Source of the DNA: Caproicibacterium lactatifermentans
Lineage (GTDB): Bacteria > Bacillota > Clostridia > Oscillospirales > Acutalibacteraceae
Reading direction: 5' to 3'
DNA: 64,000 bases
Assembly: GCF_013315815.1 (NCBI RefSeq)
Contig: NZ_CP046051.1
Span: forward strand, 372,001-436,000
Shown here one piece after another: positions 5,707 to 34,474 of the stretch (position 1 is the stretch's first letter; every line of letters starts with the position of its first letter). The notes below the pieces were generated by a model, which worked only from the letters and a program-made list of their open reading frames with translations, was not told where the DNA came from and made no database searches. Both the position numbers and the translations under genes were made by a program.

Positions 5707-6363
5707 ATGCTGACAGAGCAGAAAGAACAGTTTATCCGGTTTATGATGGATGCAGATGTACTGCGTTTTGGCGACTTTGTAACCAAAAGCGGCCGCAATA
5801 CCCCGTACTTTGTCAATACCGGAAATTACCGCACCGGCGCACAGGCGGCGGGGCTGGGCCGTTTTTATGCCGGTATGGTACATGACAGCGGCTGCCGCTT
5901 TGACGCGATGTTTGGGCCGGCTTATAAGGGAATCCCACTGGTAACTGCCTGCGCGGGTGCACTGTACACCCAGTACGGAGAGGACAAGCCCTACTTCTTT
6001 AACCGCAAAGAGGCAAAGGACCACGGCGAGGGCGGTTGTTTGGTCGGCTATCAGCCGAAGGATGGCGACCACGTCATTATTATTGAGGACGTCATTACCG
6101 CGGGCACTGCTGTACGTGAAACCATACCTGTGCTGCGCTCGGCGGCAGATGTTTCCTGCAGTGATATGTTTATCTCCGTTAACCGCTGCGAAGTGGGACA
6201 GCACCCCGGCAAAACAGCAGTTATGGAAGTACAGGAAGAGTTCGGCATTACGGTGCACTCCTTAGTCACCGTGCGGGATATTCGCGAATGGCTGGGCAAG
6301 CACGGCGAATATGATGCACTTCTGCCAAAAATGGATAGGTATATGCAGAAATATTGTATCTAA
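5707..6363 (+). CDS. pyrE: Orotate phosphoribosyltransferase
   Basis: A 218-residue enzyme joining orotate and PRPP to give OMP in pyrimidine synthesis. The PRPP-binding motif is clear (VIIIEDVITAGTAV), as are FGPAYKGIPL and the FNRKEAKDHGEGG loop that closes over the substrate. The ribosome site CAGGAGGG lies five bases from the ATG. The gene is alone here rather than in a pyr cluster and ends in its own terminator. Confidence 0.95.
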   Translation: MLTEQKEQFIRFMMDADVLRFGDFVTKSGRNTPYFVNTGNYRTGAQAAGLGRFYAGMVHDSGCRFDAMFGPAYKGIPLVTACAGALYTQYGEDKPYFFNRKEAKDHGEGGCLVGYQPKDGDHVIIIEDVITAGTAVRETIPVLRSAADVSCSDMFISVNRCEVGQHPGKTAVMEVQEEFGITVHSLVTVRDIREWLGKHGEYDALLPKMDRYMQKYCI

Positions 6364-6390
6364 AGGCAGCGTGCCGCAGCAAAAAATGCC

Positions 6391-6431
6391 GACAGATGTG
6401 GGGGACTGACTTCCCTGCATCTGTCTTTTTT
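6391..6431 (+). terminator. Terminator after pyrE
   Basis: Stem GACAGATG/CATCTGTC followed by a run of T. Confidence 0.85.
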
Positions 6432-6475
6432 GTTCTGCATACAGCAGAGAAGACCCATGAAAAAGGAGAGAATCC

Positions 6476-8233
6476 ATGAAACTGATTTTTAAGTACCTCG
6501 GACACTACAAAGGGTGGTGCTTGCTGGACTTCCTCTCGGTTTTCGGCTTTGCGCTGACCGAGCTGGGAATACCGACACTGATGGCAAAGATGATTGACGG
6601 CGGTGTGATGAAAAATGATACAGGCTATATTCATAAAATGTGGCTGACCATTCTTATCATTTCGTTCATTGGTGTGACAGGAATCATTTTGCTCGGGTAC
6701 TGCTGCGCACGCATTTCTTCCAATGTGACGGCGGATATGCGCAGTGACGTATTTGCGCGGGCCCAAAGCTTTTCCGATACCGAGTTTGGCAAGTTCGGCG
6801 TTTCCTCTATGATTACACGGACCAACAACGATGCCTTTCAGGTGCAGATGTTTTTGAATATGCTTTTGCGTACAGCACTGATGACGCCGGTTATGTTAGT
6901 GGCCAGTTATGTTATGATTCTGTACGCGTCAGTGAAGCTTTCTCTGATTGTGGCGGCGACTATTCCAATTATTGTGCTGGGCGTGGTCATTGTTGCGCGG
7001 CTGTCGAAGCCCATCAGCGAAAAACAGCAGGATTCCCAGGATGGAATGAACCGCATTACTCGTGAAAATTTGACTGGCATTCGTGTAGTGCGTGCCTTTA
7101 CCAATGATAAATATGAGGAAAAACGCTTTGCGGGTGAAAATGAGCAGTACGCTAGTTGCTCCAAAAAAATGTTTCTGCTGATGCAGCTGACACAGCCGGC
7201 ATTTTTTCTGATAATGAATATTGCAAGCGTGCTCATCTACTGGCGCGGCGCGCAGCTTTTGGGAATCGGCCAGCTGCAAATTGGCCAGCTGACCGCATTT
7301 GTGGTTTATTTGTTCCATGCCATGATGTCCACTATGCTGTTCTGCACTGTCTTTATGATGTACCCGCGTGCAGCCGTCAGTGCTCACCGGATTCAGCAGG
7401 TGCTGGACACTGTTCCGCTGGTGCGGGACCCGGTGGGTGGCCTGCAGATGCAAAAGCCGGTACGGGACCTCACCTTTGACCATGTGACCTTTGTGTATCC
7501 GGACGGCGACGAGCCGGTTTTGCAGGATGTTTCCTTTTCGGTGCGGGTGGGACAGACCATTGCCTTTGTTGGCAGTACCGGTTCCGGAAAGAGCACGCTG
7601 GTGAACCTGATTCCCCGCTTTTATGACGTGACCGGCGGCAGCATTCAGATAAACGGCACGGATATTCGTGAGTACAGTCTCAGCTCCCTGCGCGGCGCTA
7701 TGGGCTTTATTCCGCAGAAAGCATTTCTGTTTCATGGAACCATTGCCGACAATATCCGTTTCGGAAAAGAGGATGCAAGCAAAGAAGAAGTGGAGCACGC
7801 GGCGAAAGTCGCGCAGGCGTATGATTTTATTATGGAAAAGCCGGGCGGTTTTGACGAAACCATTGAGGAGAACTCAGTCAATACCTCCGGCGGACAGCGT
7901 CAGCGGCTTTCCATTGCGCGTGCTGTTGTGCGCCAACCGCAGATTTATGTGTTTGATGACTCTTTTTCTGCGCTGGATTTTCGCACGGATGCAAATCTGC
8001 GCCGGGCACTGCACAGTGAAACCCAGAACGCGATTGTTGCCATTGTGGCACAGCGGGTGTCTACTATTTTGGATGCAGACTGTATTGTTGTGCTGAATGA
8101 GGGCAAAGTTGTGGGCATGGGCACACATCAGCAGCTGCTGCGTACTTGCCCTATTTATTATGAGATTGCCGCCTCACAGTTGACGGAAGCCGAGCTGCAG
8201 GAAAGTGCTGGGGAAGGGGGCAATGCAGAATGA
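6476..8233 (+). CDS. ABC exporter half-transporter, subunit with degenerate ATP site
   Basis: A 585-residue type IV ABC exporter subunit. Six membrane helices (about residues 15-300) precede a nucleotide-binding domain with Walker A GSTGSGKST, signature TSGGQRQRLSIARA and Walker B IYVFDDSFSALD. The usual catalytic Glu after Walker B is Asp here. This marks the non-hydrolysing subunit of heterodimeric exporters such as BmrC/BmrD or TM287/288. The stop overlaps the start of the partner gene by four bases (ATGA), so the two are translationally coupled. The substrate is unknown; family members export drugs, lipids or peptides. Confidence 0.92.
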   Translation: MKLIFKYLGHYKGWCLLDFLSVFGFALTELGIPTLMAKMIDGGVMKNDTGYIHKMWLTILIISFIGVTGIILLGYCCARISSNVTADMRSDVFARAQSFSDTEFGKFGVSSMITRTNNDAFQVQMFLNMLLRTALMTPVMLVASYVMILYASVKLSLIVAATIPIIVLGVVIVARLSKPISEKQQDSQDGMNRITRENLTGIRVVRAFTNDKYEEKRFAGENEQYASCSKKMFLLMQLTQPAFFLIMNIASVLIYWRGAQLLGIGQLQIGQLTAFVVYLFHAMMSTMLFCTVFMMYPRAAVSAHRIQQVLDTVPLVRDPVGGLQMQKPVRDLTFDHVTFVYPDGDEPVLQDVSFSVRVGQTIAFVGSTGSGKSTLVNLIPRFYDVTGGSIQINGTDIREYSLSSLRGAMGFIPQKAFLFHGTIADNIRFGKEDASKEEVEHAAKVAQAYDFIMEKPGGFDETIEENSVNTSGGQRQRLSIARAVVRQPQIYVFDDSFSALDFRTDANLRRALHSETQNAIVAIVAQRVSTILDADCIVVLNEGKVVGMGTHQQLLRTCPIYYEIAASQLTEAELQESAGEGGNAE

Positions 8234-24829: not shown

Positions 24830-25891
24830 TCAGGTTTGCGGGGAAGGCGGAGCTTTGGCTTCGTCTTTTTCTTTGCCTTTCCCGGAAACAAAAGCGTTAA
24901 ACTCCGGGGGGTTGGGGGCAGCGCCCCCAAATGTATCCAACGGATAAATTCCCGTCATGACAAACTTGTAGTACTCACACGGCGAGAGCTTGGCAAGGCT
25001 CCATTGATACCGGTCGTTGTTATAATACTCAATCCAAGCGTAAACACGTTCAGCAATTACTGCATGTCCATAAGATCCAACCGGTGGCAGTTCATCCTTC
25101 ATGTGTCCAAATAGGCTTTCCTGCGGTGCATTGTCCCAACAATTTCCTCTGCGGGACATGGATTGACGGAGGTTGTAATCATTCAGAATGGCAACGAATT
25201 TAGAACTGGTGTATTGGCATCCTTGATCTGAATGGATCAGGGCGTCCGTGTGAAGTTCAGACCCATGCTTTTCCATCAGTTGATTTACGGTGTCCAAGAC
25301 GAAATCTGTATCACAGGAGTTACTGCAGGTACAGGCCAAAACTTCTTTTGTGAATGCGTCCATGATCACACAGACGTATGAATAATAGTAAGCTCGTTGG
25401 CTGCTATCTCGGTGTACCGGTCTCGGAATATATGTAATGTCCGTCAGCAGAACAGTGCGCGGTCCAAATGACTTAAACTGTCTGTTTAGTATGTTCGGAG
25501 CTGTCCTGTTTTCCTGTAGACGCTTGCCGAGCTTGCGGTACGGATTTACCTTTCGTACCGGACATACGAGGTGATACTTTTTCATCAGTCTGCGAATCTT
25601 CTTTGTGTTCATAAGCACCGGGGGATCCTGATGCCGCAGTCTCATGTGTATACCGCGTGCGCCTTTTGAATATCCGCGGAAATTGTATGCAGCCACAATG
25701 AGGTCAAAGTCTCTTTGATCGGCCTCATCGGATGCTGTCCGCTCGGTCTGATGTCCACGCCAGTAATAAAATCCCGAACGAGATACGCCTGCTATTTCAC
25801 AAAGATAAGAAATATTCAGAAGATTGTCATCCTGGCTAATGGTTTCATTTATGATGCGGTAGCGGACTTCTGGGGAACCATTCATATACAT
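24830..25891 (-). CDS. IS3-family transposase OrfB (DDE)
   Basis: A 353-residue integrase-type transposase. An N-terminal HTH_21-like part (YRIINETI...SGFYYW) is followed by the rve core with the DDE residues in LLTDITY, IHSDQGCQYTS and APQESLFGHMKDE. The C-terminus ends with an odd KGKEKDEAKAPPSPQT tail. It begins two bases after the OrfA stop, but the frame is open further upstream. It is probably also made as an OrfAB fusion by -1 slippage on the A run. All catalytic residues are present, so it may be active. Confidence 0.93.
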   Translation of the reverse strand: MYMNGSPEVRYRIINETISQDDNLLNISYLCEIAGVSRSGFYYWRGHQTERTASDEADQRDFDLIVAAYNFRGYSKGARGIHMRLRHQDPPVLMNTKKIRRLMKKYHLVCPVRKVNPYRKLGKRLQENRTAPNILNRQFKSFGPRTVLLTDITYIPRPVHRDSSQRAYYYSYVCVIMDAFTKEVLACTCSNSCDTDFVLDTVNQLMEKHGSELHTDALIHSDQGCQYTSSKFVAILNDYNLRQSMSRRGNCWDNAPQESLFGHMKDELPPVGSYGHAVIAERVYAWIEYYNNDRYQWSLAKLSPCEYYKFVMTGIYPLDTFGGAAPNPPEFNAFVSGKGKEKDEAKAPPSPQT

Positions 25892-25893
25892 GG

Positions 25894-26415
25894 CTATTTC
25901 CCTTTCTTCTCCGCAAATATAATTTTTTTTATAAACTCAATCTCTTGGGACATGTAGGCAACCTTCGCAGCGAGATGGTTTATTTCTGACTCGCTCATCA
26001 ATGGAGGATGCCCTTTGTTTGCCCTACGAGGCGGCGCTGGCAGTGGAGGTGCATCCTCGTTGTCATCCGGATAAGGATCATTTCCTTCGGTAAACTCGAG
26101 GCCACGTCCTTTTGCTTGCCGCAGAAGCTTAAAAAAGCCGAGAATGCGTGCACGTCCTAATGTCTCCGGGTTGAGGCCGACCTCAGAAAAAATCTGTATC
26201 GGATCGACCCCATCGCAGTACCGTTGCCAAGCTGCATCTTTAAAAGCTTTTGTGTATGACACTGTTTTGCTTGAGACATATGCCACATGAGGCGAGTCCG
26301 TGAGTTCCTTGAGTTGTTCTGCAGAGAACGCAGCATGCTCATATGTGCCGTCAGGATTCTTTTTCTTACGGCCTGCACCAGGACGTGAACCCCCACGATT
26401 ACTGCTGTTTGCCAT
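25894..26415 (-). CDS. IS3-like OrfA, large helix-turn-helix protein
   Basis: A 173-residue protein beginning with a basic Gly-rich stretch (NRGGSRPGAGRKKK). A helix-turn-helix-like region follows (FKDAAWQRYCDGVDPIQIFSEVGL), then a Pro-rich linker (PPLPAPPRRANKG) and a C-terminal leucine-zipper-like helix (INHLAAKVAYMSQEIEFIKKIIF). It is much longer than the usual 100-residue OrfA. Its gene ends over an eight-A slippery run. It gives DNA-binding specificity to the fused transposase. Confidence 0.82.
   Translation of the reverse strand: MANSSNRGGSRPGAGRKKKNPDGTYEHAAFSAEQLKELTDSPHVAYVSSKTVSYTKAFKDAAWQRYCDGVDPIQIFSEVGLNPETLGRARILGFFKLLRQAKGRGLEFTEGNDPYPDDNEDAPPLPAPPRRANKGHPPLMSESEINHLAAKVAYMSQEIEFIKKIIFAEKKGK
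25923..25930 (-). promoter_or_regulatory. Probable -1 ribosomal frameshift site (A AAA AAA)
   Basis: Minus strand ATA AAA AAA ATT in the OrfA frame is a canonical slippery heptamer. A -1 shift enters the OrfB frame, which is open from there to the OrfB ATG. Known IS3 elements make OrfAB transposase this way. Confidence 0.7.
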
Positions 26416-28693: not shown

Positions 28694-28885
28694 ATGGAAG
28701 AACCTTTAACTGGGCAAAAATGCGCGGTCCAGCCGCTGCCGCCTATTCCAAAGGACCCGGCACTGGCCATGGCATATATACCCGTACAAAAATTTGAGAA
28801 CCTATATCAGCCGGAGGAGGGGTACCAGTCCGGTACTCTATTCCGGGATCTGAACAAACCCTTTATGGGGGGTGCCGCGAAATGA
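28694..28885 (+). CDS. cotJA: Spore coat-associated protein CotJA
   Basis: A 63-residue acidic, proline-rich protein. The block LAMAYIPVQKFENLYQPEEG, ending FRDLNKPF, is the CotJA family signature. In Bacillus the cotJ operon is switched on by sigma-E in the mother cell and the products enter the spore coat. I chose the ATG at 28694 behind AGAAAGGAG. It overlaps cotJB by four bases. Confidence 0.9.
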   Translation: MEEPLTGQKCAVQPLPPIPKDPALAMAYIPVQKFENLYQPEEGYQSGTLFRDLNKPFMGGAAK

Positions 28886-29148
28886 CAGAACAGCAGCGCC
28901 TAATGCGCAGGATAGATGCCTGCCGGTTTGCCATGTGGGAACTGAAAATTTTTCTTGATACCCACCCCGACAACTGTGAGGCTGTGAAAAGTTTGCAGGA
29001 ACGCCGGAAGATGGCTGCCGACCTGATAAAACAGTATGAGGATGCCTACGGGCCGCTGAACCAAAGCGACGCCACCGCCAGCCGCTGGGCGTGGGTGCAG
29101 GAGCCATGGCCGTGGGAGCTTACACAAAAAGAGGAGGCGGATAACTGA
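28882..29148 (+). CDS. cotJB: Spore coat protein CotJB
   Basis: An 88-residue protein of the CotJB family: RRIDACRFAMWELKIFLDTHPDN, AADLIKQYEDAYGPL and the Trp-rich end WAWVQEPWPWE. It overlaps cotJA by four bases and its TGA overlaps the cotJC ATG (TGATG), so all three genes are translationally coupled. The product acts with CotJC in the coat, but its exact job is unknown. Confidence 0.92.
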   Translation: MTEQQRLMRRIDACRFAMWELKIFLDTHPDNCEAVKSLQERRKMAADLIKQYEDAYGPLNQSDATASRWAWVQEPWPWELTQKEEADN

Positions 29149-29239
29149 TGTGGAACTATGAAAAACGGCTGCAGTATCCTATTCACATTAAAAATCCAGA
29201 CCCGCGTATGGCGAAGATTGTGCTGGCACAATATGGTGG
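29148..29239 (+). pseudogene. cotJC: cotJC 5' part, split by an intervening element
   Basis: Codons 1-30 of CotJC (MWNYEKRLQYPIHIKNPDPR, then MAKIVLAQYGG), in the normal place after cotJB. At the shared sequence TATGGTGG the gene runs into the inserted element and stops at 29256-29258 after 36 codons. None of the metal ligands is in this part. Joining it at TATGGTGG to the 3' part (33950-34474) gives exactly 203 codons with stop and no frame change. It is better seen as one half of a rearrangeable gene than as a dead gene. Confidence 0.93.
29232..29239 (+). other. Left att core (attL), TATGGTGG
   Basis: The eight-base core shared with 33950-33957. The last two bases, GG, lie at the centre of symmetry and are the predicted two-base crossover of a serine recombinase. 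Confidence 0.8.
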
Positions 29240-29245
29240 GCTATA

Positions 29246-29262
29246 CATTAAAATGTGATAAT
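29246..29262 (+). repeat. attP right arm (inverted-repeat half)
   Basis: CATTAAAATGTGATAAT. Its complement matches 14 of 17 bases of the left arm at 33933-33949. In the excised circle these arms flank the core. Confidence 0.75.
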
Positions 29263-29278
29263 CTAGAGCAAACAAAAA

Positions 29279-30706
29279 TCAGGCGAAGTAAAATACCTCA
29301 ACACTGCAGCTTATGCGGTCGAAAACAGCATGGTCGACAAACGACCGCATAAGCTTTGATTTTTCAGCCATCGGCACATCCGGCGATTGAATACGTGCCA
29401 GCTTGGATAGATTCTTTTTGCAGTATGCCTGCATATCTATTGCTGGAGTGGGACGTTTGAGCTCGCTTTCCAGCTTTGCAATTTGTTTGTTGATGCGCAT
29501 TTTATTTTGCTTGTATTCATCCAGCGTATCCACTCCAGAGGCATAAGCATCCTTTACGCGGCCCAGCTTTTGCCGTTCACGGTTCAGCTGCTGCTGGAGA
29601 ATAGAAATCGAGCTTTTGGTGCGTTCTGGGTGTGTGCGGTATATGAGAGATACGCTGCCGGAGGACAGGTCTTTTTGGATGACATAATACGTGATTGCCT
29701 CGATTTTGCTGAGGGAAATATAATGCGACTCTGTGCACTGACCGTGAGCAAAGGCACAGCACTGAAATCCTCCATGCGTAAAAGATAATGTAGAGCCGCA
29801 GTTGCTGCACTTCACAAGGCCCTGCAATGGGCTGTGCAGCGACGGGGTGATATGGTGTACATATTTGCCATGGAGCACCTTGTTTTCTGCAATTTTTTTC
29901 TGCGCAGCGTCCCACGTTTGTAAATCAATAATTGCCTCATGCCTGCCGTCAACAATTTTGACGGACGGGTCGTCGTAGTTCATGTTCGTTATGTGGTCAG
30001 GATTCCAGCGGATTTTTCCAATGTATACAGGATTACGCAAGATATAATCCACGGTGCGGTTTTCCCACAAGTTTCCGCGCCGAGTGCGGATGCCCATGGC
30101 ATTGATTTTTATGGCGATTTTTTTAACAGGTACCCCCGCTGAAAAATCACTAAAAATCATCCGAACAAGCGGCGCGGTGTCCGGGTCTGGCACCAGTTGG
30201 CCGTCTTGCATCAGGTAGCCGATGGGCGCGATGGACACCGGGTGTCCAGTTTCAAACGCTTTGGTCATGCCGCGTTTGACTTCCCCAGCCAAACGGACAG
30301 AATAGTAGCCGTCCATCCACTCAATGATGCGCTCAATCAGGTTGCCGAATTCGCCATCAGCAATCGGCTCCGAGATGCTGACAACCGAGATACCCTTTTC
30401 CCGTTTGAGCAGGGATTTATAGACGATACTCTCTTCTTGGTTGCGCGCAAACCGGCTGAACTTCCAGACCAATATAACATCAATATCACTTTCCGGGGAA
30501 CGGGCCGTGGCAATCATTCGCTGAAACTCCGGCCGTCTTTCGGCTTTACGGCCGCTGATACCTTCTGCTTCGCGGAAAATATATTCTTCCGGCAAAATCA
30601 TGTCATGTTCTTTTGCGTATTTTTGTATCAGCTCCAGCTGACTTTCGGGGCTGTACTCCAGCTGGTTGTCAGTGCTGACGCGGATATAGGCTGCTGCCGT
30701 CTGCAT
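29279..30706 (-). CDS. Large serine recombinase of the cotJC element
   Basis: A 475-residue site-specific recombinase. The N-terminal resolvase domain has the catalytic Ser11 in AAYIRVSTDNQ, the conserved SGRKAERRPEFQRM region and KFSRFARN. The long helix E (ERIIEWMDGYYSVRLAGE) leads to the recombinase domain (PIGYLMQ, TVDYILRNPVYIGKIRW). A zinc ribbon (CSNCGSTL and later CC and C) is interrupted by a coiled coil (ILQQQLNRERQKLG to KQIAKLESEL). All parts are intact, so the enzyme is likely active. The ATG at 30706 follows AGAGGTG. It reads toward the left att site, and the XRE gene lies just upstream. Confidence 0.93.
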   Translation of the reverse strand: MQTAAAYIRVSTDNQLEYSPESQLELIQKYAKEHDMILPEEYIFREAEGISGRKAERRPEFQRMIATARSPESDIDVILVWKFSRFARNQEESIVYKSLLKREKGISVVSISEPIADGEFGNLIERIIEWMDGYYSVRLAGEVKRGMTKAFETGHPVSIAPIGYLMQDGQLVPDPDTAPLVRMIFSDFSAGVPVKKIAIKINAMGIRTRRGNLWENRTVDYILRNPVYIGKIRWNPDHITNMNYDDPSVKIVDGRHEAIIDLQTWDAAQKKIAENKVLHGKYVHHITPSLHSPLQGLVKCSNCGSTLSFTHGGFQCCAFAHGQCTESHYISLSKIEAITYYVIQKDLSSGSVSLIYRTHPERTKSSISILQQQLNRERQKLGRVKDAYASGVDTLDEYKQNKMRINKQIAKLESELKRPTPAIDMQAYCKKNLSKLARIQSPDVPMAEKSKLMRSFVDHAVFDRISCSVEVFYFA

Positions 30707-30724
30707 GGTATCACCTCTTTGCAA

Positions 30725-30931
30725 TCATGAGTCGGCACCCCCCAGCGGCTCTAATATTTTTTGCATGGTCGTCAAAGTAGGCACGCTGGGGCCGTTTTCG
30801 ATGCGTGCTGCATTCGATTGTTTAACACCTGCCAGTTCGGCAAGCTTTCCATTTGTCAATGATACGCTCCACAGCGGAAAGCGCTTCCGTTCTTTGATAT
30901 TTATATGATACCAAATTATATTAAACCTCAT
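30725..30931 (-). CDS. XRE-like helix-turn-helix regulator, possibly truncated
   Basis: Up to 68 residues. The last 45 clearly match an XRE helix-turn-helix (GKLAELAGVKQSNAARIENG, PSVPTLTTMQKILEPLG). The N-terminal part (MRFNIIWYHINIKERKRF) is less typical, so the first helix may be degraded or the start misplaced. A TATAAT-like sequence on this strand lies at 30915-30920. The stop is 18 bases before the recombinase start, so both probably share a transcript. It may repress the recombinase or set its direction; this is inference. Confidence 0.6.
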   Translation of the reverse strand: MRFNIIWYHINIKERKRFPLWSVSLTNGKLAELAGVKQSNAARIENGPSVPTLTTMQKILEPLGGADS

Positions 30932-31025
30932 ATTGAATTGGATATTTAAAAATTCGGTACAAAAAATCCCGACCAGATAAGGCCGGGATCGAACATAAGC
31001 CAGTGCGGAAAACTGGAGCGAAACC

Positions 31026-31137
31026 ATGAACGAAAAAACGCCTGCAAAAACTTATCATGGAAGCCATCGAAGAGATGGATGATGTGCCATTGCTGTTAGA
31101 ATTGTACAGCGCCGTAAAAGAGCTTACAGGCAAATAG
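31026..31137 (+). pseudogene. Small ORF with frameshift in an A run
   Basis: The ATG at 31026 opens MNEK, then a run of six A shifts the frame. With five A the reading would be MNEKRLQKLIMEAIEEMDDV, then PLLLELYSAVKELTGK and a stop at 31135-31137: 36 acidic, helical residues. The downstream part alone could start at an internal ATG near 31056. It reads away from the XRE gene and is followed by a terminator. It may be a decayed antitoxin-like or regulatory peptide; no family is recognised. Confidence 0.5.
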
Positions 31138-31155
31138 TTATTCGTCTTTTTTGTG

Positions 31156-31190
31156 TCCGAGACTTGTTAAAAGTCGCGGATTATTTTTTT
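31156..31190 (+). terminator. Terminator after the small ORF
   Basis: Stem TCCGAGACTT/AAGTCGCGGA with a T-rich tail. Confidence 0.7.
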
Positions 31191-31336
31191 GCTTTTTTCA
31201 TCAAGTGATATATAGGAAATAATGAAATCTTTGATAAATGCTGGACAATGAAAACCCGCAGTCCGACAAGCAGCCCGCCTGACTCAGCGGGTACGGAAAG
31301 CGGCCAGACAGCATAGCATAAAAAGAGGTGATACGC

Positions 31337-31624
31337 ATGGCACGCAAGGCAGAACGCTGGACGCTCCGCTCGTCCTTTATCGACAAAACGCACAACGGTC
31401 AGCCGCAGCTGATGACCGAACGGGTTGTGGAACTGACAAAGGACCCAAAAACAAAGCAATGGGTGGTGCATGAGATATCATGCCGGCAGGTGATGCCGGA
31501 GGCGGAGCAAAAGAAGGCCAAAGCGGCCATGATGCGGCGCGCGTCGGAGCAGATGTCGGATTACATATCCACAAATGACAGTGTAATTGCCCCGGGAACC
31601 TATAAGCTTACGGACCTACTATGA
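31337..31624 (+). CDS. Hypothetical 95-residue basic protein of the element
   Basis: Starts MARKAERWTLRSSFIDKTH at an ATG behind AGAGGTGATACGC, a good ribosome site. It is basic and helical in the second half (EAEQKKAKAAMMRRASEQM) with no recognised domain. The stop touches the start region of the replication-gene remnant, so both may once have formed an operon. In position it resembles small accessory genes next to replication proteins of integrative elements; a directionality-factor role is possible but only a guess. Confidence 0.65.
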   Translation: MARKAERWTLRSSFIDKTHNGQPQLMTERVVELTKDPKTKQWVVHEISCRQVMPEAEQKKAKAAMMRRASEQMSDYISTNDSVIAPGTYKLTDLL

Positions 31625-31886
31625 AATTTCCGCCGAGAGGTCTTTGCCTACGAAGCGGGACCGGAAGGAAACAAAGCTGCGGCGCCTGTTAAATACAAAC
31701 TTCGGATCAGGTGATTTTCACCTAACGTTGACTTACCGAAAAGGGGATAGACCAGCGGCCGAAAAGGTGCCAGGCATCATGGAAAAGTTTTGGAGAGATT
31801 TTCGGGCTTGAATATCAGTTTTACAGTATGGTGAAGTTATCCACGGCAGAGCGGAGAAGCGGTGCAGAGTCTATTCCATAGAATGA
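31587..31886 (+). pseudogene. Remnant of a replication-initiator-like gene
   Basis: One frame from about 31587 gives YYEISAERSLPTKRDRK, KLRRLLNTNFGSGDFHLTLTY and EKFWRDFRA, then TGA at 31809. The same frame goes on as ISVLQYGEVIHG before a second stop. To my recollection this resembles the N-terminal third of clostridial phage- or ICE-type replication proteins, which run to about 270 residues. The rest is missing; the next gene follows on the other strand at once. It suggests that the element descends from a self-replicating mobile element that has lost this function. Confidence 0.55.
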
Positions 31887-32569
31887 AAACATTGCGGATA
31901 CCATCCAACTACCGCGTATGGAATGATGAACACAACAATCCCTGTAGAGTAAGGTGCAATGTCATATTGCTGATAGTAGATTGCAACGCCGCAGCAGGTG
32001 AGATAATAGCTCTCTTTGTTGAAATTCTTTACAATCAGCTCCCGGTAATTTTCAAAATAAATACCGGGATTTTGTTGATATTGTTTATCAGCCTGCTTTA
32101 TAATCTGCTCTGTCAGCAATGCACAATAATCCTGACCGGCTGGGAACAGGCAGGAAAGCGGAACGTTTTTTCCGTTAGAAAGGTTCCAAGTGTCGGATGA
32201 CCGGACGGTGCTTCCATGAGCACCGCCGGTATACTCGTACTGCTCGCGGTATACGCTGAGATAGCAGTTCTGATTGTAAGTCGTTTCATATTTGAGAACT
32301 GCGTCATATGGGTGAAAAGGAAATCCCTGCTCCAATGTGTCCTTATAGTAAGCAATGGCCTGCTGGTACAGTTCACCGGATGCATGCTGATAAAATGTAT
32401 TCACCTGCTTTTGAATTTGAGCATTGATGCTGACTTGCACAGGCTCATTGTTCTGTAAGTATATTTTCGGATAGGAAATGGTAAACGTAAGCATGGTTGT
32501 ATTGTCATATGTAAGAGTACGATTTATTTTGCACGTTTTCATACATGCGCATGCGTTAAAAGAATTCAT
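31871..32569 (-). CDS. DUF4163/DUF3298-type protein without signal peptide
   Basis: A 232-residue protein. The first half looks like a PdaC/RsiV-type DUF4163 domain (TFTISYPKIYL, EYTGGAHGSTVRSSDTWNL). The end looks like DUF3298 (YLTCCGVAIYYQQYDIAPYSTGIVVFIIPY). Family members are normally exported or membrane-bound, but the N-terminus here (MNSFNACACMKTCK) is Cys-rich with no signal peptide. The product would therefore stay in the cell that makes it. AGGAGG lies seven bases from the ATG, so it is probably expressed. It is cargo of the cotJC element. Confidence 0.75.
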   Translation of the reverse strand: MNSFNACACMKTCKINRTLTYDNTTMLTFTISYPKIYLQNNEPVQVSINAQIQKQVNTFYQHASGELYQQAIAYYKDTLEQGFPFHPYDAVLKYETTYNQNCYLSVYREQYEYTGGAHGSTVRSSDTWNLSNGKNVPLSCLFPAGQDYCALLTEQIIKQADKQYQQNPGIYFENYRELIVKNFNKESYYLTCCGVAIYYQQYDIAPYSTGIVVFIIPYAVVGWYPQCFHSME

Positions 32570-32793
32570 GAGTCATTCCTCCTGTTTTGGATTTTTATTA
32601 TTTTATTCAATCAAAACGGAGATTAACACAAAGTGAGGGGAGCATAAATGATGGTTTTACCAATCAAAAAACAATTTAAGGGCTGAATTTCAAATGGCAG
32701 CACCAGAGAATCAGAAGAAAATGAATGGGCTGTCCCGCTTTCGGACGCGAAACGGCAGAGTTTGAAAAGTACATATTGCCGAAATGGGGGAAA

Positions 32794-32826
32794 TAAAAAA
32801 CGGCTCCGTCCCAAAAGGGACGGAGC
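32794..32826 (-). terminator. Terminator of the Cys-rich peptide gene
   Basis: Perfect stem GCTCCGTCCC/GGGACGGAGC with TTTT loop; a T-run follows on the minus strand. Confidence 0.85.
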
Positions 32827-32845
32827 TAGATGTAGGCGATGTTAC

Positions 32846-32920
32846 TTATTTACAACCGTTGCAGCAACCGCAGTTGCTCATCATCTGCTGGAGCAGCTGG
32901 AGCAATTCCTGACATGTCAT
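32846..32920 (-). CDS. 24-residue cysteine-rich peptide in the cotJC element
   Basis: An ORF too short for normal callers: MTCQELLQLLQQMMSNCGCC then NGCK. Five Cys in 24 residues, four of them in a C-G-C-C-N-G-C block at the end. The ATG has a strong AAGGAGG site seven bases away, a promoter with 17-base spacing at 32969-32997, and a perfect terminator after the stop. That complete unit argues for a real gene. It could be a small coat or metal-binding peptide; no family is recognised. Confidence 0.6.
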   Translation of the reverse strand: MTCQELLQLLQQMMSNCGCCNGCK

Positions 32921-32968
32921 AGCAGAAGCCTCCTTTTCAAGTTTGCTATTTCCTTTCGGAATACGTCT

Positions 32969-32997
32969 ATCATATCAGAATTTATACAAGGCTACAA
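32969..32997 (-). promoter_or_regulatory. Promoter of the Cys-rich peptide gene
   Basis: Minus strand TTGTAG, 17-base spacer, TATGAT. Confidence 0.5.
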
Positions 32998-33039
32998 TCA
33001 TATATTTTTGGCAAACTTGTTAATGAAATAAATGGATAA

Positions 33040-33202
33040 TACTTCGGCATTGTTTGGTTTGCACAAAGATACGAATGAAGGCGCAGCGCGTGAGCAGGCT
33101 GCACCGCCCAACGTGGGGTACGGCAGTCCAACAGGACGTGCCCACTGGTTCGTGACCGGAATATCTCTCCAAAGGCAGACAGTCTTGAAAGGCTGTCTTT
33201 TC
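33040..33202 (+). ncRNA. Candidate structured RNA with terminator
   Basis: Three hairpins lie inside a closing stem AGATA/TATCT (33067-33071 and 33162-33166). These are GGCG+CAGC with GCTG+CGCC (33080-33108), GTGGG/CCCAC enclosing GCAGTCC/GGACGTGC with an AACA loop (33113-33145), and CTGG/CCGG with a seven-base loop (33145-33159). A terminator AGACAG/CTGTCT-TTT follows at 33177-33202. No convincing ORF is present. The RNA could be independent or lead into the cupin gene; I recognise no known riboswitch class. Confidence 0.45.
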
Positions 33203-33283
33203 GTATCCCTTCAATGAAACACTTTCTTGAAACGCCTTTCATATATATAATAGTATACCAGAATATGAAGGGAGCAAAAAAGT

Positions 33284-33730
33284 ATGAATAATAGGTGTCC
33301 ACGTCAGGGCAACTGTAATCGTATGCTCTTACAAGATTATGGACCGGAGCCGTTTGTAGTTGACATTGAAGCAATGACAAGGAGAAATAATAATTATCGT
33401 ACGGCATTATGGACAGGGGACTATCTGCAGATGACTTTAATGAGCATCAGGGTGGGTGAAGATATAGGTCTGGAAATACATCCCGATACAGACCAGTTCC
33501 TTAGGATTGAGCAAGGCCGGGGAATTGTAAAGATGGGAAGCAAAAAGGATAATTTAACCTTCCAAAAACAGGTATGCCCTGGATATGTGATATTGGTACC
33601 AGCAAAAACATGGCACAATGTAATAAATACCGGAGATGTCCCACTGAAAATGTATACGATTTATGCACCTCCTCATCATCCGTGGGGCACGGTTCAAAAA
33701 ACAAAAGCTGACGCACAGGAAGCAGAATAA
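33284..33730 (+). CDS. Cupin-domain protein, cargo of the cotJC element
   Basis: A 148-residue single-domain cupin. Motif 1 includes GLEIHPDTDQFLRIEQGRG and motif 2 PAKTWHNVINTG; the His, Gln/Glu and second His could bind a metal. The front (PFVVDIEAMTRRNNNYRTALWTGDYLQMTLMSI) and the end (YAPPHHPWGTVQKTKADA) belong to a cupin subfamily common in clostridia. Its substrate is unknown. The promoter region has TTGAAA and overlapping TATAAT-like sequences around 33229-33255. A UUCG-loop terminator follows. Confidence 0.85.
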   Translation: MNNRCPRQGNCNRMLLQDYGPEPFVVDIEAMTRRNNNYRTALWTGDYLQMTLMSIRVGEDIGLEIHPDTDQFLRIEQGRGIVKMGSKKDNLTFQKQVCPGYVILVPAKTWHNVINTGDVPLKMYTIYAPPHHPWGTVQKTKADAQEAE

Positions 33731-33735
33731 TTAGG

Positions 33736-33766
33736 CAACGTATCGCTTCGGCGGTACGCTGTTTTT
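33736..33766 (+). terminator. Terminator after the cupin gene
   Basis: Stem AACGTATCGC/GCGGTACGCT with a TTCG tetraloop and T-run. The 180 bases from here to the right junction contain no gene. Confidence 0.82.
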
Positions 33767-33932
33767 ATACCCCAAAACTGAAACATACTGCGGCAAGCAC
33801 AATGTACCTGCAACCATGGGGTGCGGCGCACGGCTGACCGTCAGTATTGATGTCTTCTGCCACTCCCGCAAGCGGCGGCACTTAAGAAGATGTATCAGGG
33901 AATTACAAGTAGATTAAAATGAACAGTACTAT

Positions 33933-33957
33933 ATTATCGCAATTTAAAGTATGGTGG
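33933..33957 (+). other. Right att site (attR): inverted-repeat arm plus core
   Basis: ATTATCGCAATTTAAAG (33933-33949) followed by TATGGTGG (33950-33957). The arm is the partner of 29246-29262. Confidence 0.78.
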
Positions 33958-34474
33958 ACCTCACGGCGAACTTGGCGCGTCTTTAAGGTATATTTCGCAG
34001 CGTTATGTCATGCCGTATCCGGAACTGAAAGCAATCCTTACGGATGTCGGAACTGAGGAGCTGGCGCACTTGGAAATGGTTAGCACCATTGTGTATCAGC
34101 TGACACGGAACCTGACGCCGGAACAGATTAAAGAGGGCGGCTTTCAGGACTATTTCATCAACCATACGACCGGAATTTTTCCGGCAGACGCAAACGGTAT
34201 GCCGTTCAGTGCCATGACCATAGACGTTGCCGGCGACCCCATCACGGACCTGCACGAGGACCTTGCCGCTGAGCAGAAGGCACGCACAACTTATGACAAC
34301 ATCCTGCGCTTTGCGGAGGACCCCGACGTGCGTGACCCCATTAAATTCCTGCGTCAGCGCGAAGTGGTGCATTATCAGCGTTTCGGCGAGGCGCTGCGCA
34401 TCATTACGGACCACTTGGACAGTAAAAACTTTTACGCCCTTAACCCGGCTTTCGATAATACAAAAAAGAAATAA
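33950..34474 (+). pseudogene. cotJC: cotJC 3' part, codons 29-202
   Basis: Read from the core it gives YGGPHGELGASLRYISQRYV through DNTKKK. In the joined protein the manganese-catalase ligands would be E35, E65, H68, E136 and H169, close to the spacing known for manganese catalases. The fragment has no ribosome site at its own first ATG (34010), so it should not be translated alone. Lengths 92 and 517 bases after the GG crossover sum to 609, or 203 codons. A terminator follows, closing the cotJABC operon. Confidence 0.93.

Follow-up and report, generated by a model that had tools for sequence, protein, structure and literature searches.

The spore-coat catalase gene cotJC of Caproicibacterium lactatifermentans is split by a serine-recombinase element at one of several recurrent sites

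SPbeta is excised from the gene spsM during sporulation of Bacillus subtilis (PMC4191935; here and below, papers are cited for those parts of their text that were available). The skin elements split sigK, and because skin of B. subtilis and skinCd of Clostridioides difficile occupy different regions of sigK (PMC6957869), it was already known that one gene can be hit at different points across species. In C. difficile, the skin recombinase is made constitutively, and excision is timed by a directionality factor controlled by sigma-E and SpoIIID (PMC5025042). Here we describe a related arrangement in cotJC, the gene for the spore-coat Mn catalase, of Caproicibacterium lactatifermentans. Within a stretch of 64,000 bp (the window; positions 372,001 to 436,000 of NZ_CP046051.1, a complete contig of 1.99 Mb), cotJC is split at 29238/33956 by an element of 4,718 bp (29238..33955, the core-to-core distance). 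We found that the split is real and belongs to a wider pattern.

The operon of the window runs cotJA (28694..28885, plus strand; Pfam CotJA, E 4.1e-16), cotJB (28882..29148, plus; Pfam CotJB, E 1.6e-27) and a two-piece cotJC, whose ATG at 29148 overlaps the cotJB stop. The 5' piece (29148..29239, plus) holds nucleotides (nt) 1-92, that is, codons 1-30 and the two leading bases of codon 31; the 3' piece (33958..34474, plus; Pfam Mn_catalase) holds nt 93-609. Each junction carries the core TATGGTGG on the plus strand, at 29232..29239 on the left (attL) and 33950..33957 on the right (attR), with the inferred crossover at the GG of 29238-29239 and 33956-33957. The original prediction, made from the letters of this DNA, was that joining at the core would rebuild the gene. 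Its pieces and coordinates hold: rejoining at the shared GG gives 92 + 517 = 609 bases, or 202 amino acids and a stop, in frame and with 0 internal stops or frameshifts. All five candidate ligands (Glu35, Glu65, His68, Glu136 and His169) lie in the 3' piece, past the junction as predicted, and fall on conserved residues in an alignment with a Mn catalase of known structure; we take them to be metal-binding in CotJC. A whole-genome search matched the two split pieces and nothing else, so no second intact cotJC was found beside which this copy might be decaying. The two signs of a spore former that we looked at, a full-length SpoIVA and the cotJA-cotJB-cotJC cluster, are both present in the genome.

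The predicted attachment sites also have the form associated with large serine recombinases. Inverted-repeat analysis placed the right arm of the predicted attP, ACATTAAAATGTGATAAT, at 29245..29262 and the left arm, ATTATCGCAATTTAAAG, at 33933..33949 (both plus). The arms pair at 19 of 23 positions, compared with 4 of 23 for attB and a mean of 10.3 at the best centre of shuffled sequences; attP is thus more palindromic than attB around the shared dinucleotide GG. With its short shared core, its intact recombinase frame and an excision that is predicted to restore the reading frame, the element shares these features with skin-like elements.

This locus resembles skin in that a serine-recombinase element splits a mother-cell sporulation gene that excision would rebuild. 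Unlike sigK, the target encodes a coat catalase and not a sigma factor, and relatives carry up to three elements in the gene. SPbeta in spsM is similar in that active and defective prophages, full and shrunken, sit in a spore-envelope gene (PMC4191935), but the gene is a different one and one site has been described for SPbeta. Other sporulation-gene-intervening elements, gin in gerE (B. cereus), vfbin in spoVFB, vrin in spoVR and yin in yabG (C. botulinum), have, in contrast to what we report here, been described as one element per gene (PMC5595907, PMC4191935, PMC10747680). The regulated gene integrity of helper-embedded phage-inducible chromosomal islands (HE-PICI) is also comparable, as insertion disrupts a gene, excision restores it and an integrase clade keeps its targets (PMC10111431). 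There, however, prophage late genes are hit, whereas here several recombinase lineages use different sites in a host coat gene. Diverse large serine recombinases can converge on one conserved coding site, such as that in a prolyl isomerase gene (PMC10083194). The cotJC case differs in having several points within one gene and a sporulation context, and the available main text of that paper contains neither catalase nor cotJ.

We found that split cotJC is common among relatives. The sample comprised 98 genomes, including that of the window; all match rows were listed, genes were classed as split or intact by hand, and low-identity paralogues were excluded from the count. cotJC was intact in 37 genomes and split in 33, was present only as outer pieces in five (G018, G046, G056, G075 and G081), was unclear in one (G029) and was not found in 21. 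One further apparent split (G061) was rejected as a break at a contig end. In 28 of the 33 split genomes (all but G009, G016, G040, G060 and G082), we retrieved and aligned the two flanks of one junction or more. The control gene, spoIVA, turned up in 84 of the 98 genomes; in 3 of these it was in two pieces only, compared with 33 of 70 for split cotJC (Fisher p 6e-11). Two of the three (G024 and G076) have their pieces at or nearly at a contig end. SpoIVA was full length in 28 of the 33 split-cotJC genomes; the five others were G003 and G011 (each with a single partial piece, at a contig end), G049 and G082 (no SpoIVA found) and G060. Elsewhere, G047 had a piece covering 472 of 492 positions, and a full copy was accompanied by extra fragments in G033 and G051. 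The third two-piece spoIVA, that of G060, seems split between C36:3656-4888 (profile positions 1-411) and C15:30072-30326 (408-492; L143), with a recombinase frame by the 3' piece, and possibly contains an intervening element of its own.

The same cotJC sites recurred in other families in a class-wide sample of 128 genomes, and junction regions were retrieved for 14 genomes beyond the 98. Splits looked rarer in a phylum sample of 129, where we had match rows only (e.g., G590, G603 and G654). Draft contigs ended within 7 nt of a cotJC crossover in six genomes (G061:C76 end; G227:C2, G459:C70, G040:C6 and G570:C81 starts; and G029), as if joined and split forms had coexisted in the sample. This is suggestive only. 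As a demonstration of mixed populations the contig ends were rejected: for neither G061 nor G570 did a third contig carrying the alternative branch turn up, and contigs also end elsewhere in or beside the gene (G343, G048 and G041).

We found that crossovers fall at a few fixed points. For 46 junctions we built the predicted attP and attB and took the best palindrome centre within 8 nt of a preset point, with the dinucleotide agreeing on both sides. This gave a value for 45 junctions; one (G464-B) had no agreed centre. The mean number of paired positions out of 23 was 15.6 for attP and 6.1 for attB, compared with 10.2 at the best centre of shuffles. In 42 of the 45, the inferred crossover was at one of five points. 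At site A, that of the window, it was nt 91-92 (GG) in 18/18 junctions. Site B had nt 184-185 (GG) in 13/17, nt 193-194 (GA) in two and other positions in two (G017 and G049). Site C had nt 406-407 (GA) in 4/5 (the exception being G093-C), and site D had nt 523-524 (GA) in 5/5. All five points are codon positions 1 and 2 of conserved residues (Gly31, Gly62, Glu65, Glu136 and Glu/Asp175), and none is more than six codons from a candidate ligand. The crossover bases thus appear to be among the least variable available, and a recombinase aimed at such bases could use many hosts.

Recombinase lineages matched the sites. Recombinase frames were assigned to a site by the nearest junction, 26 in a first set and 25 in a second; 47 of the 51 were within 250 bp of a junction, and the remaining four (L063, L065, L107 and L140) were 0.7-2 kb away. 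The maximum-likelihood tree of the first set had four fully supported groups that matched the four sites in 26/26 cases (A 10, B 7, C 3, D 6). Of the second set, 3 of whose 25 members came from similarity to the recombinase of the window and hence are not independent, 20 fell in the group of their site. The five misfits formed two extra groups, one at site A (L104 and L107, from G464 and G497) and one at site B (L115, L124 and L140, from G486, G475 and G049); two members of the latter have the shifted centre at nt 193. A group-A recombinase, 44.7% identical to that of the window, was also found at 6016-7446 of a circular phage record from Neotoma feces (PQ006094.1; L103). By eye, an attP-like palindrome backs this integrase, and the phage is predicted to insert in cotJC. 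A scan of viral contigs gave one distant match.

Some relatives have several elements in one cotJC. G093 has four pieces (codons 1-64, 61-136, 134-178 and 172-197) over 25 kb of one contig, interrupted by three elements with three different recombinases. There are three pieces on one contig in G087 and on the single 4.8-Mb contig of G464, four pieces on two contigs in G031 and three on two contigs in G071. Separately, the pieces in G475 (C1:2541492-2698809; L123, L124) are 157 kb apart on the same strand of a single contig, which could be either a very large element or a rearrangement.

We found that the split gene bears the marks of selection. Joined at the preset core points, 23/23 genes had no internal stop or frameshift; the frame was set by alignment to intact CotJC, the first 11 codons of G003 were read as N, and G034 was joined without a 5' piece. 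G001, G003, G004 and G010 have one orthologous element in common, 84-93% identical in long blocks, and no intact CotJC was found in any of them (G004 and G010 are single contigs; G001 and G003 are incomplete drafts). The ratio of nonsynonymous to synonymous substitution rates (dN/dS) of cotJC in three pairs of this group (G001, G004 and G010) was 0.013-0.025, indicating strong purifying selection, and that of the recombinase was 0.12-0.14. The pattern fits a gene that would work after rejoining; a pseudogene would drift.

The contents of the window's element suggest where it came from. The large serine recombinase (29279..30724, minus; Pfam Resolvase + Recombinase; phrog_95 integrase; group A of the tree) is an open frame of 481 amino acids with a likely ATG at 30706. 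It ends ~40 bases from the left core, as the original prediction had it. Its dN/dS against G002 and UBA4871, 0.05-0.08, indicates constraint. Upstream and on the opposite strand are a small conserved gene (31337..31624, plus; ~95 amino acids), considered below, and a remnant of a phage replication-initiation protein (31587..31811, plus; phrog_3584, E 7.8e-12, profile positions 39-100 of 265). Two genes appear to be cargo, a PdaC/DUF3298 protein (31871..32569, minus; Pfam) and a cupin protein (33284..33730, plus; Pfam Cupin_2; phrog_13536); in a comparison among 24 loci that also covered the helix-turn-helix frame described below, their matches were in loci of the same genome only. By eye there is also a short cysteine-rich open frame at 32850-32921 (minus). 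Six frames of the element were searched against PHROGs. They matched families of an integrase, a regulator-like protein, the replication-initiation remnant and a phage protein of unknown function; no structural or packaging family was found among the six, as would mark an intact temperate prophage, and the only match to a tail family was weak (E 0.006) and was to the recombinase itself. In G002, of the same genus, a 44.7-kb insertion occupies the same cotJC codon. Ten long frames searched there gave matches to terminase, portal, head protease, tail sheath, tape measure and endolysin. Because this full prophage is in the same site and its recombinase is 80% identical, the window's element is probably a relative, reduced in size, of a tailed prophage. 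Several other elements are also only 4-9 kb and have a full-length recombinase frame. Outside the element, two minus-strand frames at 24830-26415 resemble, by eye, an IS3-type transposase pair.

The small conserved gene is a candidate for the factor that directs excision. Homologues were found in the site-A elements of G002, G001, G003, G004 and G010, and at two further loci (L097 and L098). In the window, the sequence CATAGCAT (31312..31319, plus), similar to a sigma-E/K -10 box and picked as a motif after viewing the sequences, is 17 nt before the ATG. The box, CATAnnnT, is at exactly this distance in 6 of the 8 copies (that of the window and the five site-A copies). We counted 186 start sites that have a ribosome-binding site, from 31 loci: the box was at this spacing in 7, all of them copies of the small gene (one counted twice), and in none of the remaining 179. 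A PHROGs search assigned the gene no function. The constitutive recombinase and sigma-E/SpoIIID-timed factor of the C. difficile skin make the arrangement here a plausible match, and on these grounds the gene may encode an excision or directionality factor with a mother-cell-type -10. Site-B loci have a different small gene. A frame of ~60 amino acids, a candidate partner factor, is upstream of the recombinase in 13 of 19 loci scanned (L057, L062, L063, L065, L073, L099, L106, L122, L126, L128, L129, L139 and L142), within 45 bases of it in 8 of the 13, and CATAnnnT boxes were found at 4. The helix-turn-helix frame directly upstream of the recombinase (30725..31027, minus; Pfam HTH_3) had a match in UBA4871 only, beyond the window itself, among the 24 loci compared, and was dropped as the directionality factor. 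Control at the recombinase promoter was unsupported: in the 200 bp upstream of 48 recombinases, no sigma-E-like site was seen (0/48; 1.2 expected from shuffles).

Based on these results we suggest how the locus may have arisen and may work. An ancestral temperate phage, with a large serine recombinase specialised on the cotJC site near codon 31, would have inserted there, and in the lineage of the window the element would have been reduced to 4.7 kb, with recognisable phage structural genes gone. The recombinase and a directionality factor, perhaps the product of 31337-31624, would cut at GG and fuse codons 1-30 precisely to codons 31-202. Excision is likely to take place, during sporulation, in the mother cell, in which the cotJ operon is active and whose rearranged chromosome would not be inherited. 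In relatives with up to three elements, cotJC would be assembled through two or three successive excisions. From the sequences we infer excision itself, the cells in which it takes place and when, and what the small gene does.

We regard it as quite likely that the element of the window is a skin-like gene-intervening element. The original prediction of a skin-like developmental switch agrees with the frame-preserving element and its intact recombinase frame, the search that found no other cotJC, the intact spoIVA, the purifying selection in a related group and the candidate factor with its mother-cell-type -10. In one respect it was too narrow, as it pictured a single isolated switch, and cotJC is split at several points by several lineages in many families. 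With somewhat less assurance, we favor a broader reading in which clostridial cotJC is a gene in up to four pieces with up to three elements, inserted by site-specialised recombinase lineages whose crossovers are at non-wobble bases of conserved Gly, Glu or Asp codons beside the metal-ligand motif. The coat catalase would then be made only by cells that excise every element, and the elements would be retained for that reason. Release in the mother cell, at least of the site-A elements, would fall to a candidate factor under a mother-cell promoter.

Several observations weigh against the explanation as a skin-like gene-intervening element. The predicted attP sites of G017 and G049 were no more palindromic than shuffles, and no recombinase was found in the stretches retrieved at G012, G011, G071 (site B), G040 and G016. 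A group-A recombinase (L098) is in a 21-kb locus without cotJC, and a group-A-like one (L097; 52% identical to that of the window, not in the tree) is ~11 kb past the cotJC 3' piece on the G012 contig. Both of these group-A-like recombinases are together with a small-gene homologue, and neither pair adjoins a cotJC piece; for one more locus, L100, cotJC was also not found. In G006, a single-contig assembly, the two pieces are on opposite strands and ~2.1 Mb from each other (C1:446947 plus, 2556906 minus; L090, L091), so excision cannot rebuild that copy; inversion would rejoin it. The absence of sigma-E-like sites upstream of the recombinases also counts here, although at site B, where a small gene is just upstream, the 200-bp stretch may miss an operon promoter. 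The CATAnnnT box was noticed first and counted afterwards, and a matching -35 was seen only in the window and G002. Lastly, one element group is the only one in which selection is well measured, since the synonymous rate (dS) had reached saturation in most of the other pairs.

Some of the same observations would be expected if cotJC were a plain lysogeny hotspot, a conserved attB at which carriers lose the gene and from which prophages excise on induction, unrelated to sporulation. The full prophage of G002 in the same site, the circular phage genome with its group-A recombinase and the lack of sigma-E-like promoters near the recombinases are all in keeping with that. However, joined genes that are uniformly free of stops and frameshifts, the low dN/dS of cotJC while split, the full-length recombinase frames kept by several elements of 4-9 kb and the mother-cell-type -10 box of the small gene argue otherwise, and we consider simple lysogeny unlikely. 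A dead remnant, fixed in a cotJC pseudogene of a host that sporulates without CotJC, is more improbable again. A decayed phage gene is indeed inside the element, and some of the 21 genomes in which CotJC was not found have spoIVA, but the recombinase frame is intact and constrained, the cotJC frame is perfect and the cores match. We give almost no credence to an assembly artefact or chimera. Many relatives are drafts, with the contig break of G061 as an example of what these can produce, but single-contig assemblies with a split cotJC include the genome of the window, G002, G004, G006, G010 and G017, and the att-like structure with site-matched recombinases recurs across families.

We found no earlier report of a skin-like system in cotJC or of its multi-piece form. 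Among the matches listed in our literature search, no title or abstract describes an element inside cotJC; the scope of that search did not extend to the 2020 paper of Mageeney et al. on regulated gene integrity. The main texts, as far as available, of PMC5595907, PMC10747680, PMC4191935, PMC5025042, PMC6957869, PMC10111431, PMC10083194, PMC12424338, PMC11063209 and PMC13141910 do not mention cotJ or cotJC. The C. difficile prophage phi027 adjoins a 678-bp cotJC-related gene (PMC11222575), so attachment in the neighborhood of such a gene is already in print.

The cases in print, in the parts available, have one element per sporulation gene. Here, one coat gene is a recurrent target at fixed codons and has multi-element forms. 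Gene-finding programs run on such genomes may overlook CotJC or call it too short, and the site-matched recombinases come with predicted att sites that are on offer for use. The finding makes it possible to test how phages settle harmlessly in spore formers, why they land at the codons under the most constraint, and how a series of programmed excisions would be put in order within one cell.

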